Assembly (NCBI GenBank): GCA_027624045.1
Contig: JAQBUE010000010.1
Coordinates: forward strand, 1-53,668
Length of the DNA stretch: 53,668 bases
Origin: Acidobacteriota bacterium
Lineage (GTDB): Bacteria; Acidobacteriota; Terriglobia; Bryobacterales; UBA6623
Reading direction: 5' to 3'
Of the stretch, positions 11,395-53,480 are shown one piece after another (the first letter of the stretch is position 1; each line of letters begins with the position of its first letter). The notes under the pieces were generated by a model. The model worked only from the letters and a program-made list of their open reading frames with translations. It ran no database searches and had not been told where the DNA came from. The position numbers and the translations under genes were made by a program.

Positions 11395-12981
11395 ATGTCA
11401 TTCCCAAACCGGCGGCATCCAGTTCTCCTTTGGCTTGCGAGCGTGGTTCTGCTAAATCTGCTCGCCGCGGGCGCCCAGGCGCAGAAAGTCGAGGCGATTG
11501 TTCATACACTCGACAACGGCCTGAAGCTGCTGCTCGTTCCCCAGGAAGGAGACCCGAATATCTCCTGTGGCTGGGTCGCCAAAGTCGGCTCGGTGAACGA
11601 GCGCCCCGGGGTTACCGGCGTCGCCCACCTGTTCGAGCACATGATGTTCAAGGGCACTCACATCCTCGGCACGAAGGACATCGACAAGGATCTCGAAATC
11701 ATCAAGCAGCTTGACGCCCTCAAGGCCCAGATCCGCGAAGAGGACGAGGCGCTGATCGAGAAACACCGCCGCGGGCTGATTGACGATCCGAAGAACCCTG
11801 AGGCGCGCGGCGAAAAGCACAACGAGCTGCTCAAGCGATTTGGCGAACTGCTTGAGCAGCAGCGCGAGCTGATCGTCAAAGACGAGTTCGATCGCATCTA
11901 CACGCTGAACGGCGCGTCGGGCCTGAACGCCTTCACGTCGAACGACCTGACGGTCTACATGATCAACGTCCCGGCGAACAAGCTTGAACTCTGGTTCTGG
12001 ATGGAGTCCGACCGGCTTTCGAGCCCGGTGTTCCGCGAGTTTTACAGCGAGCGCGACGTCGTACATGAAGAGCGCCGGCTGCGCGTTGACTCGACGCCCA
12101 CCGGCAAGCTCGACGAGCAGTTCGAAACGCTGTTCTGGCAATCCTCGCCCTATCACTGGCCCGTGATCGGCTGGCCCAGCGACCTGGAGGGCCTGACGCG
12201 TGAGGAGGCCCTCGAATTCTTCGACACCTACTACGCGCCGAACAACCTGACCGTCTCGCTCGTCGGCGACTTTGACCCCGACCAGGCCATCGAGTGGGCC
12301 GAGAAATACTTGGGCCGAATCAAGAAGGGCAAGACGAAACCGCAACCAGTGCGCACGACGGAGATCAAGCAGCAGGCCGAAACCCGCATGACCGGTTATG
12401 CCGATACACGGCCGACCGTCAAGGCCCGCTATCATACCGTCGCCGACGCGCACCGTGAAGAACCAGCTCTGCTCGTTCTCGCCAACTTGATGAATGGAAC
12501 GACGGGCCGCCTTTACAAATCGCTCGTTCTCGAGCAGAAGGTGGCCACGGCCGCCGGTGCCGGCGTCAATGGCCTGAAATACGACGGTTTCTTTGAGCTA
12601 TCGGGCATCGCCGCCGAAGGCCACACACCGGAGGAACTCGAGCAGGCGCTCTACAAGGAAATGGAAGTGCTTCAGGAGCAGCTCGTCGGCGATCGAGAGC
12701 TTCAAAAGGTCAAGAATCAGCAACTTGCGGATGACTTTCGCCGCCTGCGTTCGAAGGATAGTTTGATGATTCAACTGCTGATCTACGAAGCTCTCGGCAG
12801 TTGGAAAAACATCAATAGGTTTTCCGAGCGTATCCAGGCCGTAACGCCCGAAGACGTGCGCGCGGCCGCGCGGAAATATTTCAAACCCGAGAACCGTAAC
12901 GTGGCCGTCTACTACACGAAGGAAAGCGCAGGCAGCCAAGAACGCCCCGGTCGCCCGGTGGGACCTGGAGGTCAGCAATGA
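11395..12981 (+). CDS. M16 family zinc metallopeptidase, catalytic subunit
   Basis: A 528-residue exported peptidase with a signal peptide (cleavage near AQAQ, residue about 29). The inverted zinc motif is present as H78-L-F-E81-H82 followed by MMFKGT, and the downstream glutamate-rich segment ERDVVHEERRLR supplies the third ligand. A charged, coiled-coil-like insertion of roughly 65 residues (about 99-165) separates the zinc motif from the NAFTSNDLTVY strand, which is unusual for M16B. The usual two M16 halves follow. The stop overlaps the start of the next gene (ATGA), whose product lacks the zinc motif, so the two should form a heterodimer that degrades peptides in the periplasm. Confidence 0.9.
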   Translation: MSFPNRRHPVLLWLASVVLLNLLAAGAQAQKVEAIVHTLDNGLKLLLVPQEGDPNISCGWVAKVGSVNERPGVTGVAHLFEHMMFKGTHILGTKDIDKDLEIIKQLDALKAQIREEDEALIEKHRRGLIDDPKNPEARGEKHNELLKRFGELLEQQRELIVKDEFDRIYTLNGASGLNAFTSNDLTVYMINVPANKLELWFWMESDRLSSPVFREFYSERDVVHEERRLRVDSTPTGKLDEQFETLFWQSSPYHWPVIGWPSDLEGLTREEALEFFDTYYAPNNLTVSLVGDFDPDQAIEWAEKYLGRIKKGKTKPQPVRTTEIKQQAETRMTGYADTRPTVKARYHTVADAHREEPALLVLANLMNGTTGRLYKSLVLEQKVATAAGAGVNGLKYDGFFELSGIAAEGHTPEELEQALYKEMEVLQEQLVGDRELQKVKNQQLADDFRRLRSKDSLMIQLLIYEALGSWKNINRFSERIQAVTPEDVRAAARKYFKPENRNVAVYYTKESAGSQERPGRPVGPGGQQ

Positions 12982-13006
12982 GGTCAACAGTGAGGTCAAC
13001 AATGAG
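12968..13006 (+). repeat. Triplicated 12-bp ribosome-site/start-codon module
   Basis: Three tandem units GAGGTCAGCAAT, GAGGTCAACAGT and GAGGTCAACAAT occupy 12968-13003, followed by GAG. Each unit carries a GAGG Shine-Dalgarno core and, at its junction with the next, an in-frame start codon: ATG 12978, GTG 12990 and ATG 13002. The repeat is a multiple of three, so all three starts share the frame of the downstream M16 gene. The first unit overlaps the TGA stop of the upstream gene. Confidence 0.85.
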
Positions 13007-14501
13007 ACGCCGAGACTGGATGAAGCTCGCTGCCGGCGCGGCCTGCGCGCCCGCTGCCTGGGCCGCCGAGACGGACGTCGTTCCGCACCCGAGCCGCCTG
13101 AAATTTCCAACGCTCACGTACAATCCGCCGCAGCCGGAAGAATACCGCCATGAGTTACCAGGAGGTGCCGTAGCCTACGTTGTTGAGGACCATCAGCTTC
13201 CGCTGATCGATATTTCGATTACGATTCGGACCGGTGGTTACCTTGTCCCTAAGACAATGCTGGGCCTGGCATCCTCCACCGGTGCCCAGATCCGCGCCGG
13301 CGGAACGAAGACCGCATCCGCGCGCGAGTTTGACGAGCAGGCCGCGTTTCTGGCCTCTGAGATGAGCAGCGGCATCGGCTCCACCTCGGCTTCGGCCACC
13401 TTGAACTGCCTCAAGCAGAATCTTGAGCCGACGCTCAAACTGTTCTTCGACATGCTGAAGAACCCCGGCTTTGATCCGGAACGCCTGCAGCTTTCCGTCG
13501 CGCGCCGGCTGCAGGGCATGCAGCGGCGGAACGATCAGACCGGCGGCATCGAGGGCCGCGAGTTCGCCCGGCTGCTGCGCGGCGACGATCACTTCTCAAC
13601 CTGGCAGACGACGCAAGCGACCGTCGAGGCCATCACGACCGAGGCAATGGCTGAGTTCCATCAGCGTTATTACCATCCCGGCTCAATGACCTTCGCGATC
13701 TCTGGAGACGTCGATACAAAACAGATCCTTGAGAGGCTCGGCAGCGAACTGACGGCCGGTTGGCCGGCATCGTCCAAGCCCGACGTCCCGAAGGTTCCGG
13801 CACCCGGTCACAAGCCGCAGGCCGGAGTCTACATGGTGAACAAGCCGGATGTGAACCAGTCACGCATCGCTATGGGGCACATCGGCATCCAGCGCGACAA
13901 CCCCGACCATCTTGCGGTCGGTGTGATGAACCATATCCTTGGCGGCGGCGGGTTCACGTCGCGCATCATGTCACGTGTGCGCTCGGACGAGGGCCTCGCG
14001 TACAGTGCCGGAACAGGCTTTCAACCCGGCACGTACTATCCCGGCATCTTCCACGCCGGGTTCCAGTCCATGAACGGCCGCTGCGCGCAAGCGACCACGA
14101 TTGTGCTCGAGGAACTGGACCGCATTCGCCAGGAGAAGGTCTCCGAGGAAGAACTGGCTGTTGCGAAGAACTTTTCGATCGAAGTGTTTCCGCGTTTCTT
14201 CGCCACGGCGTCGGCCGTTGCCGGGACGTTTGCCGGCGATGAATATAGCGGCCGCGAGAAGGGGTACTGGGACAAGTATCGTGACCGCATTGCCGCGGTG
14301 AGCAGCGACGACGTGCTGCGAGTGGCACAGAAGTACCTGCACCCAGATCAACTGGTCATTCTGGGCGTCGGGAACGTGGAGGAGATGCTCGCTGGGAATC
14401 CCGACCAGCCCGACTTTCTGTTCTCGAAACTTGCCAAAGACAAAGAAATCCATCACATTCCGCTGCCTGATCCGATGACGATGGAGTACCCCTCCGCCTG
14501 A
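12978..14501 (+). CDS. M16 family peptidase-like protein, non-catalytic subunit, exported
   Basis: A 507-residue M16 homologue. Where HxxEH should be it reads GLASSTGAQIRAGG, so there is no zinc site. The second half keeps the conserved VRSDEGLAYSAG segment, the R/Y-type motif known from the partner subunit of heterodimeric M16B peptidases. The N-terminus MRRRDWMKLAAGAA resembles a Tat signal. Three in-frame starts (12978, 12990, 13002) are created by a tandem repeat; the third gives the most compact Tat leader. Its ATG overlaps the stop of the catalytic subunit gene. Confidence 0.88.
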   Translation: MRSTVRSTMRRRDWMKLAAGAACAPAAWAAETDVVPHPSRLKFPTLTYNPPQPEEYRHELPGGAVAYVVEDHQLPLIDISITIRTGGYLVPKTMLGLASSTGAQIRAGGTKTASAREFDEQAAFLASEMSSGIGSTSASATLNCLKQNLEPTLKLFFDMLKNPGFDPERLQLSVARRLQGMQRRNDQTGGIEGREFARLLRGDDHFSTWQTTQATVEAITTEAMAEFHQRYYHPGSMTFAISGDVDTKQILERLGSELTAGWPASSKPDVPKVPAPGHKPQAGVYMVNKPDVNQSRIAMGHIGIQRDNPDHLAVGVMNHILGGGGFTSRIMSRVRSDEGLAYSAGTGFQPGTYYPGIFHAGFQSMNGRCAQATTIVLEELDRIRQEKVSEEELAVAKNFSIEVFPRFFATASAVAGTFAGDEYSGREKGYWDKYRDRIAAVSSDDVLRVAQKYLHPDQLVILGVGNVEEMLAGNPDQPDFLFSKLAKDKEIHHIPLPDPMTMEYPSA

Positions 14502-49798: not shown

Positions 49799-50605
49799 GT
49801 GCCCGAACTTCCTGAAGTAGAAACGATCATCCGCGGGCTCGCGAGGCGCGTAATCAATCGCCGCATCGCCGGGGTTGAATTCCACGAGCCCCGCACGGTC
49901 GTGGGGGACCCCGCTCAGGCCGTCGAGCGCTTGCTCGGACAAACGATTCGCGGCATCCGGCGTCACGGCAAGTACATCGTTTTCGATCTACAGAAAGGCC
50001 GCAAGGAGAGCTGCCTCGTCGTCCATTTGCGGATGTCCGGCAACTTCGTTCTTGACGGCGAGCCGGGGCCGCATACGCGCGCGATTGTCGAGCTTGAGGG
50101 CGGCCCGACGATGGTCTTTCATGACATTCGCAAGTTCGGGCGCTGGCAGGTGTCGGACGATTTGCCGGCGCGGCTGCTGCAGCTGGGCCCAGAGCCGCTC
50201 GAGATTTCCGAATCCGAGTTCGTCAAACAGCTTCGCGGGCGCCGGGCCATGGCGAAGGCTTTATTGCTGAATCAGGAATTCCTGCGCGGGCTCGGTAACA
50301 TCTACGCCGATGAATCGCTGTTCCGGGCGCGCATTCACCCGCGGGCGATTACGTCGCGGATCGGTGTGAAGCGCGCCGCACGGCTCCATCGCGCCATTCA
50401 GGAAGTTTTGACGGACGCGATTGCGCAGGGCGGTTCGACGATCAACAATTACGTCAATAGCGAGGGCGGACAGGGCTACTTTCAGCTCAGCACGGCGGTC
50501 TACGGCAAGACCGGCGAGGAGTGCACGGTTTGCGCGGCGCCGATCCTTCGCATCATCGTGGCGAGCCGGAGCACCCACTATTGCGGCCGATGCCAGCGGC
50601 CGTGA
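49799..50605 (+). CDS. mutM: Formamidopyrimidine-DNA glycosylase
   Basis: A 268-residue base-excision repair enzyme removing 8-oxoguanine and ring-opened purines. It begins at GTG, giving MPELPEVETI with the catalytic N-terminal Pro2 and Glu3. HGKYIVFDL has the conserved lysine, and NIYADESLFRARIHP is the H2TH helix. The C-terminal zinc finger cysteines are C242, C245, C262 and C265. It lies between guaA and the second M16 pair. Confidence 0.96.
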   Translation: MPELPEVETIIRGLARRVINRRIAGVEFHEPRTVVGDPAQAVERLLGQTIRGIRRHGKYIVFDLQKGRKESCLVVHLRMSGNFVLDGEPGPHTRAIVELEGGPTMVFHDIRKFGRWQVSDDLPARLLQLGPEPLEISESEFVKQLRGRRAMAKALLLNQEFLRGLGNIYADESLFRARIHPRAITSRIGVKRAARLHRAIQEVLTDAIAQGGSTINNYVNSEGGQGYFQLSTAVYGKTGEECTVCAAPILRIIVASRSTHYCGRCQRP

Positions 50606-50646
50606 CGACGTTCGCGCCTACAGAACAGTGCAGCGGATGGGCTAGG

Positions 50647-52005
50647 ATGAACTCACCTATGAGACGCATCATTGGGTTGATACTGTTGGGGCTGCTGCTG
50701 GCCGCTTGCGGCTCCAAGACGGAAGACAAGATTTTCCCCTACCCCTATTCGCTCACCGACCTCGATAACGGATTGCGCGTCGTGACCGTTGACACGGGTT
50801 TTCCCGAGGTTGTGGCGCTGTACATTGTTGTGAACGTGGGTTCGCGCAACGAGGTGGAGCCAGGACGGACGGGCTTTGCTCACTTGTTCGAACACATCAT
50901 GTTTCGCGGCACCGAAAAGTTCCCGCCCGAGCGATGGGAAGCGATCATGCAAGACGCCGGCGCCCAGACCAATGCCTACACGAGCGACGACCGTACCGTC
51001 TATCACGCCGTGTTCTCAAAGGAAGATTTGGAGCCGATTCTGGAGCTCGAAGCGGACCGCTTTCAGAACCTTAAATATTCCGAAGAGGTGTTTCGCACCG
51101 AAACGCGGGCCGTACTCGGTGAGTACAACAAGAACTTCGCCAACCCCATGCGCAAGCTGGATGAGATGGTTCGAAAAGCGGCCTTCACGACCCACACGTA
51201 TCGCCACACCACCATGGGGTTTGTCGAGGATGTCGAGAACATGCCAACCATGTACGACTACGGCCTCGAGTTCTTCGACCGCTACTACCGGCCCGAGTAC
51301 ACCACGGTGTGCGTCGTGGGTGACGTCAACGCGGACCAAACTTTAGCGCTCGTCAAGAAATATTGGGGCGGATGGGAGCACGGGAGTTACAAACCGGATA
51401 TCCCTGTTGAGCCTCCGCAGGGCGGGGCTAAGACGCTGCGAGAGGCCTTCCATACTCCGACCTTGCCGATCGTCTCGGTTTCCTATCACGCGCCGGCCTA
51501 CGGCGACGAAGTGAACGACTCGGCCGTGCTCGATGTGATCTCCTATTACGCGTTCTCTGAAAACTCCGCGCTCTACAAGAAGCTCGTCGTCGAAGAGCAG
51601 AAAGTGGATGCCATGGAACCCGCCTACTACGACCACCACGATCCTTACCTGTTTTCGGTGGAAGCCCGCGTCAAAGAGAAAGAAGACGTGGACTACGTGC
51701 GGGATCAGATACTGGCGACGATCGCTAAGCTGCGGGATGAGACCGTTCCCGCGCAGCCTCTCAACGACGTGAGATCCCACTTGCGCTACCAGTTTGCTCT
51801 CGGCCTCGATAGCACCACCGCGATTGCCTCGACGCTGGCCCACTACATCAATATGCGTGGCACGCCGGAAACGATCAACAAACGCTACGCGCTCTATCAG
51901 GGCGTGACGCCGGCGGATGTGCAGCGGGTCGCGAAAGCGGTGTTCGTCGAAAGCGAACGCACCATCGCGACGTTGCTGCACGAGCCGCAAGAGGGTGCGA
52001 AATGA
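50647..52005 (+). CDS. M16 family zinc metallopeptidase lipoprotein, catalytic subunit
   Basis: About 452 residues from ATG 50647 (ATG 50659 is an equally good start; upstream in-frame sequence is inside mutM and is rejected). A lipobox (LLLAAC, Cys21) places it in a membrane. The inverted zinc motif is H79-L-F-E82-H83, followed by IMFRGTEKF and later RAVLGEYNKN. The domain order is that of M16B peptidases without the coiled-coil insertion seen in the first pair. The stop overlaps the start of the partner gene. Confidence 0.92.
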   Translation: MNSPMRRIIGLILLGLLLAACGSKTEDKIFPYPYSLTDLDNGLRVVTVDTGFPEVVALYIVVNVGSRNEVEPGRTGFAHLFEHIMFRGTEKFPPERWEAIMQDAGAQTNAYTSDDRTVYHAVFSKEDLEPILELEADRFQNLKYSEEVFRTETRAVLGEYNKNFANPMRKLDEMVRKAAFTTHTYRHTTMGFVEDVENMPTMYDYGLEFFDRYYRPEYTTVCVVGDVNADQTLALVKKYWGGWEHGSYKPDIPVEPPQGGAKTLREAFHTPTLPIVSVSYHAPAYGDEVNDSAVLDVISYYAFSENSALYKKLVVEEQKVDAMEPAYYDHHDPYLFSVEARVKEKEDVDYVRDQILATIAKLRDETVPAQPLNDVRSHLRYQFALGLDSTTAIASTLAHYINMRGTPETINKRYALYQGVTPADVQRVAKAVFVESERTIATLLHEPQEGAK

Positions 52006-53480
52006 CGCGCCGCCTGTTGTTCATCGGGCTCATGGGTGCTTTGAGCACAGCGTTCGCCGGGCCCCCAGAAACTTTGACGATGCCGAGCCAGTCGCCGCTC
52101 GTCACGTTTCGCATCATGGTTCGGACCGGAGCGGCCTTCGACCCCGCCGGGAAGGAAGGCGCCGCCGCGCTGACCGCCGCCATGCTCTCAAGGGCCGGCA
52201 CGCGGCATCAGACCTACGACGAGATCGTCGAGGCGATGTTCCCGATGGCGGCTTCCGTAAGCGCGCAGGTCGATAAGGAGATGACCGTCTTCTATGGCAC
52301 GACACATGCCGAAAACCTCGAAAAATATTACGGACTCTTGCGGCCGATGTTGCTCGATCCCGGCTGGAGAGAAGATGATTTCCGGCGCCTCAAGGATGAA
52401 GCGAGGAACTTCCTGCGCATTCAACTGCGAAGTAACAACGAGGAGGAACTAGGCAAGGAGTTCCTGTTCCTGAAGATCTTTGAAGATCACCCCTACGGTC
52501 ATCATTCGGTGGGGACGATCGCGGCGCTCGATGAGCTTACAATCGACGACCTCAAGGCATTCTATGCCGCCCACTACCTTCAAGGGAACGTTGTGATCGG
52601 TTTGGCGGGTGGCTATCCCGACGGTTTTCCTGAGCGCATGCAGGCGGATTTCGCCAAACTGCCGGTGGGCGGGCCGATCGCCGCGCCGCTGCCCCAACCG
52701 GAATCGCCCAAGAAGTTGCGAATTCACATCATCGAGAAGGACACGCGGGGAACCCACATCGCGCTTGGCTTCCCGATCCCGGTCAATCGCTCGGCCGAGG
52801 ATTGGCCGGCGCTCAAGCTTGTGCAGTCGTACTTCGGCCAACACCGCTCCAGTAAGAGCCATCTGTTCCAGGAAATCCGAGAAGTTCGCGGCATGAACTA
52901 CGGAGACTATGCGTACATCGAGTATTTCCCGCGGGGGATGTTCCAGTTCAATCCCGACCCGAACCTGGCCAGAAGTCAGCAGATTTTCCACATCTGGATT
53001 CGTCCCGTGGAACCTCAAAACGGGATGTTCGCCTTGCGGATCGCCCTCTACGAACTGAATAAACTCGTCACCGAGGGCATAACCGCGGAAAACTTCGAGG
53101 CGACGCGGCGGTTTCTTGGGAAGTTCGTGAACTTGTTGACGCAGACCGAAAGTGAAGAGCTGGGTTATGCCCTGGATAGCCGTTTCTACCGCACTCCTCC
53201 GTTTCGGGACTACCTCAAATCTGCCTGGGCCGGCACGACGGTGGACGACGTGAACAAAGTCATCCGCAAGTATCTGCGTGCGACGGATCTGGATATCGTC
53301 ATCATCACGGCCGACGCGGCGGGCCTGCGCGATGCGATCCGCTCGGGCCGGCCTTCGTCGATCAAGTATGTGTCGCCGCCGCCCGAGGACATCCTCAACG
53401 AAGACAGGGTAGTGGGCCGCTATCCGCTCGACGTGGGTAGCATCGAGATCGTGCCGGCCGAAACGATCTTCGAAAACTAA
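52002..53480 (+). CDS. M16 family peptidase-like protein, non-catalytic subunit
   Basis: A 492-residue exported protein with a signal peptide (residues about 1-19, ending AFAG). The zinc motif position reads GAAALTAAMLSRAGT, so there is no metal site. The second half carries REVRGMNYGDYAYIEY, the R/Y motif of the partner subunit in heterodimeric M16B peptidases. It is coupled to the catalytic lipoprotein gene by ATGA and should assemble with it on the periplasmic side. Confidence 0.9.
   Translation: MTRRLLFIGLMGALSTAFAGPPETLTMPSQSPLVTFRIMVRTGAAFDPAGKEGAAALTAAMLSRAGTRHQTYDEIVEAMFPMAASVSAQVDKEMTVFYGTTHAENLEKYYGLLRPMLLDPGWREDDFRRLKDEARNFLRIQLRSNNEEELGKEFLFLKIFEDHPYGHHSVGTIAALDELTIDDLKAFYAAHYLQGNVVIGLAGGYPDGFPERMQADFAKLPVGGPIAAPLPQPESPKKLRIHIIEKDTRGTHIALGFPIPVNRSAEDWPALKLVQSYFGQHRSSKSHLFQEIREVRGMNYGDYAYIEYFPRGMFQFNPDPNLARSQQIFHIWIRPVEPQNGMFALRIALYELNKLVTEGITAENFEATRRFLGKFVNLLTQTESEELGYALDSRFYRTPPFRDYLKSAWAGTTVDDVNKVIRKYLRATDLDIVIITADAAGLRDAIRSGRPSSIKYVSPPPEDILNEDRVVGRYPLDVGSIEIVPAETIFEN

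Follow-up and report, generated by a model that had tools for sequence, protein, structure and literature searches.

A stop/Shine-Dalgarno/start junction triplicated between two M16 peptidase genes in an Acidobacteriota genome

The M16 gene pair and the array at its junction

The window, a 53,668-nucleotide stretch, belongs to a 5.5-Mb genome; the named genomes closest to it are metagenome-assembled ones from the Bryobacterales. As shown in Table 1, it contains two overlapping M16 genes on the forward strand. The majority of M16B proteases are described as heterodimers (PMC12731061). In this study, we found an HxxEH motif in the upstream protein and none in the downstream protein, and both proteins carry the M16_C domain. 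Among PDB chains, the downstream protein was closest to the inactive chain of the M16B heterodimer SPH2681/SPH2682 (3amj_B, E 4.9e-46), and the active chain of the same structure was the second-best match of the upstream protein (3amj_C, E 2.8e-50). These results suggest that the pair likely encodes the putative active and inactive subunits of one complex, in agreement with an earlier sequence-only reading of this DNA, which had paired a catalytic with a non-catalytic subunit. Matches of the pair to the NCBIfam YfmF and YfmH models were far below the cut-offs, and these names were not assigned.

Table 1. Positions of the three units and of the two M16 genes that meet in the array
Feature	Positions	Strand	Sequence	Description
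Upstream gene, M16 peptidase, putative active subunit, 528 aa	11395..12981	+		Pfam M16 and M16_C; HLFEH at residue 78; PDB 4nnz and 3amj_C; TGA stop 12979-12981
Unit 1	12968-12979	+	GAGGTCAGCAAT	GGAGGT with the preceding G, -10.0 kcal/mol, strongest Shine-Dalgarno; final AT opens ATG 12978
Unit 2	12980-12991	+	GAGGTCAACAGT	GAGGT, -6.3 kcal/mol; GTG start 12990, 8 nt beyond the stop; second upstream-frame TGA 12991
Unit 3	12992-13003	+	GAGGTCAACAAT	GAGGT, -7.2 kcal/mol; ATG start 13002, 20 nt beyond the stop; third upstream-frame TGA 13003
Downstream gene, M16 peptidase-like subunit, no HxxEH; 507 aa when started at unit 1	12978..14501	+		Pfam M16_C; best PDB match 3amj_B (inactive subunit)

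Between HxxEH (78) and what is likely the zinc-ligand glutamate (about 225), the upstream protein is about 68 residues longer than the solved M16 enzymes, for which a spacing of about 80 is given (PMC12731061); judged by eye, the additional residues are charged and helix-like. A second M16 pair lies at 50521-53480 of the window, where an HxxEH gene is followed by a gene without the motif; its spacing from HxxEH to the glutamate is likewise about 80, and its junction has one ATGA overlap only, at 52002 (GAGGGTGCGAAATGA).

At the junction of the first pair, three 12-bp units stand head to tail in the window sequence and are followed by GAGA. The sequence-only reading had described three such units, each with a GAGG core and an in-frame start (ATG, GTG and ATG), and these are present as it claimed; the unit that it gave is exact in the third copy only, and the other two copies differ from it by one base each. 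Tandem Repeats Finder reported the array at 12968-13006 (period 12, 3.2 copies, 88% matches) with a score of 64, the highest among the 22 tandem-array rows of the window. All three starts share one frame. In addition, two features overlooked by the sequence-only reading were observed. The ATG of unit 1 overlaps the upstream stop as ATGA, so that the genes overlap by 4 nt, and the frame of the upstream gene meets a TGA once in each unit. Since every unit holds a stop in the upstream frame, the triplicated element is the whole stop/Shine-Dalgarno/start junction, more than a ribosome site.

The pair resembles the ATGA termination-reinitiation pairs treated in PMC6728339 and PMC10666635, as two same-strand genes with a 4-nt NTGA overlap and a Shine-Dalgarno motif inside the end of the upstream gene (GGAGGT of unit 1), likely encoding subunits of one complex. 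It differs from the pairs described there in that the overlap junction is tandemly triplicated and that coupling is predicted here from sequence. When read from unit 1, the downstream ORF has MRSTVRST added ahead of MRRRDWMK, which bears out the extra residues (RSTV/RST) of the sequence-only reading. The Tat-like leader that it had placed behind these residues stands by eye only, where the stretch RRRDWMK appears twin-arginine-like; the curated leader profile TIGR02811 reached 15.9 bits with the extended N-terminus, below its cut-off of 48.45, and had no match at all with the short one.

The junction in relatives and the origin of the array

Protein searches (E 1e-60 or better) located the gene in 3 of 3 genomes of the genus, 17 of 18 of the family and 184 of 257 of the order, own genome included. 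The junction was compared in 23 distinct relatives with a protein identity of 50% or more and the upstream gene present. A single junction was found in 23/23, both other genus members included. The sequence-only reading had proposed a count of units in relatives as a check on variable copy number, and the count was thus one at each of these junctions, all of them from other species. A 4-nt overlap is present in 19 (17 ATGA, 2 GTGA) and other short spacings in 4. Shine-Dalgarno energies ranged from -7.3 to -11.9 kcal/mol in the 19 overlap-type relatives; those of the other four were computed relative to the stop and are not quoted. Both other genomes of the genus (L006 and L007) read GGAGGTGGACNATGAGACG, with GAG repeated 12 nt apart, and a relative from another genus of the family (L019) has the sequence of unit 2, GGAGGTCAACAGTGA, in single copy.

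Excluded from the 23 were 11 loci below 50% identity (L014-L017, L038-L044), one locus without the upstream gene (L031) and duplicate rows (L008, L009, L018, L022). No repeated unit was seen in the printed junctions of the 11 loci, though some of them (e.g., L042) are poorly placed. Twenty distant junctions (L084-L103, about 33-36% identity), short stretches that are not reliably placeable, were excluded from all counts. A self-repeat in L032 (score 14, period 14) was rejected, since visual inspection shows an A-rich repeat within coding sequence, past the start, and no Shine-Dalgarno/start unit.

Since these relatives have one copy at the homologous junction, the comparison settles the array as a true duplication, and the single junction in all of them indicates that it was probably gained in this Acidobacteriota lineage. 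Slippage is the likely origin of the triplication. We infer that the GAG repeat of the sister species offered a ready template. The first extra unit would have arisen by slippage between the GAG of the Shine-Dalgarno and the GAG spanning codons 1-2 (ATGAGACG), which are 12 nt apart; a further unit would have followed by slippage between the existing 12-bp copies, an easy step once two were present, and two base changes would then have accumulated among the copies. Because the unit length of 12 is a multiple of three, both reading frames were kept. The two single-base differences between copies show that some time has passed since the array formed, and arrays this short and imperfect lend themselves poorly to rapid variation. 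Replication slippage, as put forward in the sequence-only reading, is therefore retained for the origin, which fits both the single copy in relatives and the spacing of GAG in both sister species, and the rapid variation between strains that it envisaged is disfavoured by the differing copies.

Start use at the triplicated junction

The anti-Shine-Dalgarno CCTCC was read in the 16S of three family members, since the 16S match of the own genome covers just the first part of the gene. Among the three units, only unit 1 has an energy inside the range of the 19 overlap-type relatives. The starts of units 1, 2 and 3 lie at -4, +8 and +20 nt from the upstream stop. It has been reported that reinitiation in E. 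coli loses 40-80% of its level at a distance of 14 nt and is almost absent at 38 nt, and that it is near zero at 22-23 nt in Haloferax (PMC10666635); both are organisms from outside the Acidobacteriota. Removal of the Shine-Dalgarno substantially lowered reinitiation in four of five E. coli pairs (PMC6728339). As unit 1 keeps the ATGA overlap and has the strongest Shine-Dalgarno, it is likely the main start, with a protein beginning MRSTVRSTMRRRDWMK. From the published coupling data, units 2 and 3 are predicted to be little used. Starts placed 12 nt apart would also be expected to occlude each other, not to add.

We put at about two in three (0.68) the probability that the locus is a lineage-specific triplication in which unit 1 is dominant, the extension is tolerated and the change is close to neutral. 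Unit 1 would carry nearly all reinitiation, and units 2 and 3 would be mostly silent relics. The downstream protein would bear the eight-residue extension MRSTVRST ahead of its leader, and this extension would be tolerated because of its site in the n-region of the leader. Tolerance of extra N-terminal residues is probable, since two relatives likewise carry additional residues at this position, before the RR motif (MNQRALNRRDW in L019, where GTG is read as M, and MKQIQIDRRRW in L020).

The openness of the starts speaks against this view. When the junction is folded in isolation, the start of unit 3 is the most open, with 0.91 unpaired versus 0.53 for unit 1, an advantage for unit 3 if ribosomes were to bind de novo. 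Another reading takes unit 3 as the main start, with units 1 and 2 as standby or decoy sites where ribosomes are held and then passed on downstream. The N-terminus from 13002, MRRRDWMK, matches that of both sister species (MRRREWMK), as this reading would expect. However, unit 3 combines a weaker Shine-Dalgarno with a start 20 nt away from the stop, the published dependence on distance is strong (PMC10666635), and a ribosome at unit 1 already has an AUG and a strong Shine-Dalgarno and no need to move on. We consider unit 3 as the main start unlikely, if more probable than the other alternatives to dominance of unit 1. RNA structure was not supported as a cause, as shuffled sequences fold just as well as the junction does (z 0.73). 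Start annotation by the first ATG and start annotation by homology yield different N-termini at this junction.

Dosage tuning, neutral duplication and known repeats

The sequence-only reading had proposed that the number of units tunes the ratio of the subunits. Under this proposal, the number of Shine-Dalgarno/start units would set the amount of inactive per active subunit, and slippage would vary the number between strains. Its premise holds in part: the units are in frame, each has Shine-Dalgarno-like and start elements, and units could be added or removed by slippage with both genes left unbroken. However, the single unit at 23/23 relative junctions reveals no recurring variation at this place, and the differences between the copies argue against frequent slippage. 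Unit 1 alone reproduces the overlap of the relatives and has the strong Shine-Dalgarno, and the two other units are more distal and weaker. Furthermore, coarse gene calling on a sample of 21 genome stretches (311 kb, window included) found 9 overlap junctions, of which this one alone is repeated. Tuning by copy number is therefore improbable. If unit number did change expression, the subunit ratio would have a simple evolutionary handle that lends itself to testing; the evidence does not favour this. A related view, in which the self-similar junction is a small evolvable rheostat of both reinitiation and the n-region charge of the leader for the active/inactive pair, draws on one 12-bp unit holding stop, Shine-Dalgarno and start in compatible frames, so that units could be gained or lost without harm to either gene; we regard it as more doubtful still.

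The retention of a start codon by every unit is consistent with weak selection, three starts at one junction could slightly raise the chance of initiation, and the number of units may have weak effects on dosage. Nevertheless, the array is probably a real but ordinary, near-neutral duplication, and a regulatory role is unsupported. A generic double Shine-Dalgarno/start pattern gave 167 matches versus 128 in the reversed control across 18 family genomes (6 versus 4 in the own genome), so little an excess that no large family-wide device was seen in these genomes. Among the matches listed, three others with repeated spacers were noticed (L060, L050 and L076). L060 (G013 C22:67361-67409) was rejected because its 12-bp coding repeats, GAGGCTCGGGGT, lie within a roughly 330-codon open frame and fit the pattern by accident; L050 (own genome, C56:3814-3842) was rejected as a 14-bp G-rich tandem repeat overlapping the 3' end of an open frame.

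Taken by itself, the array is only modestly beyond chance, since some array scoring 64 or more turns up in 8 of 200 dinucleotide-shuffled versions of the window; the self-repeat score of the junction is 18, and of 5000 random 90-mers drawn from the genome sample, 5 score 16 or higher. A stretch of 39 bp fits well inside a short read. A coincidental repeat, or one made by misassembly, is very improbable despite these shuffles and a source assembly of 342 contigs, because the array falls exactly on the homologous junction that is single-copy in relatives and because base changes separate its copies, which a simple assembly echo would not show.

No description of duplicated Shine-Dalgarno/start units was found in the literature searched, which comprised open-licence papers only. 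A 38-bp duplication upstream of argB is reported among other kinds of upstream mutation (PMC6941894). The array described here is a natural example of a stop/Shine-Dalgarno/start overlap duplicated with both frames intact. It shares with the TAACTGA arrays of Beggiatoaceae (PMC4679880) short direct repeats over the ribosome-binding region, just upstream of start codons. As described in that report, the TAACTGA repeats are 7-mers with little Shine-Dalgarno character, many per genome and mostly intergenic, whereas here each 12-mer has a Shine-Dalgarno and an in-frame start, and the array occupies one locus.
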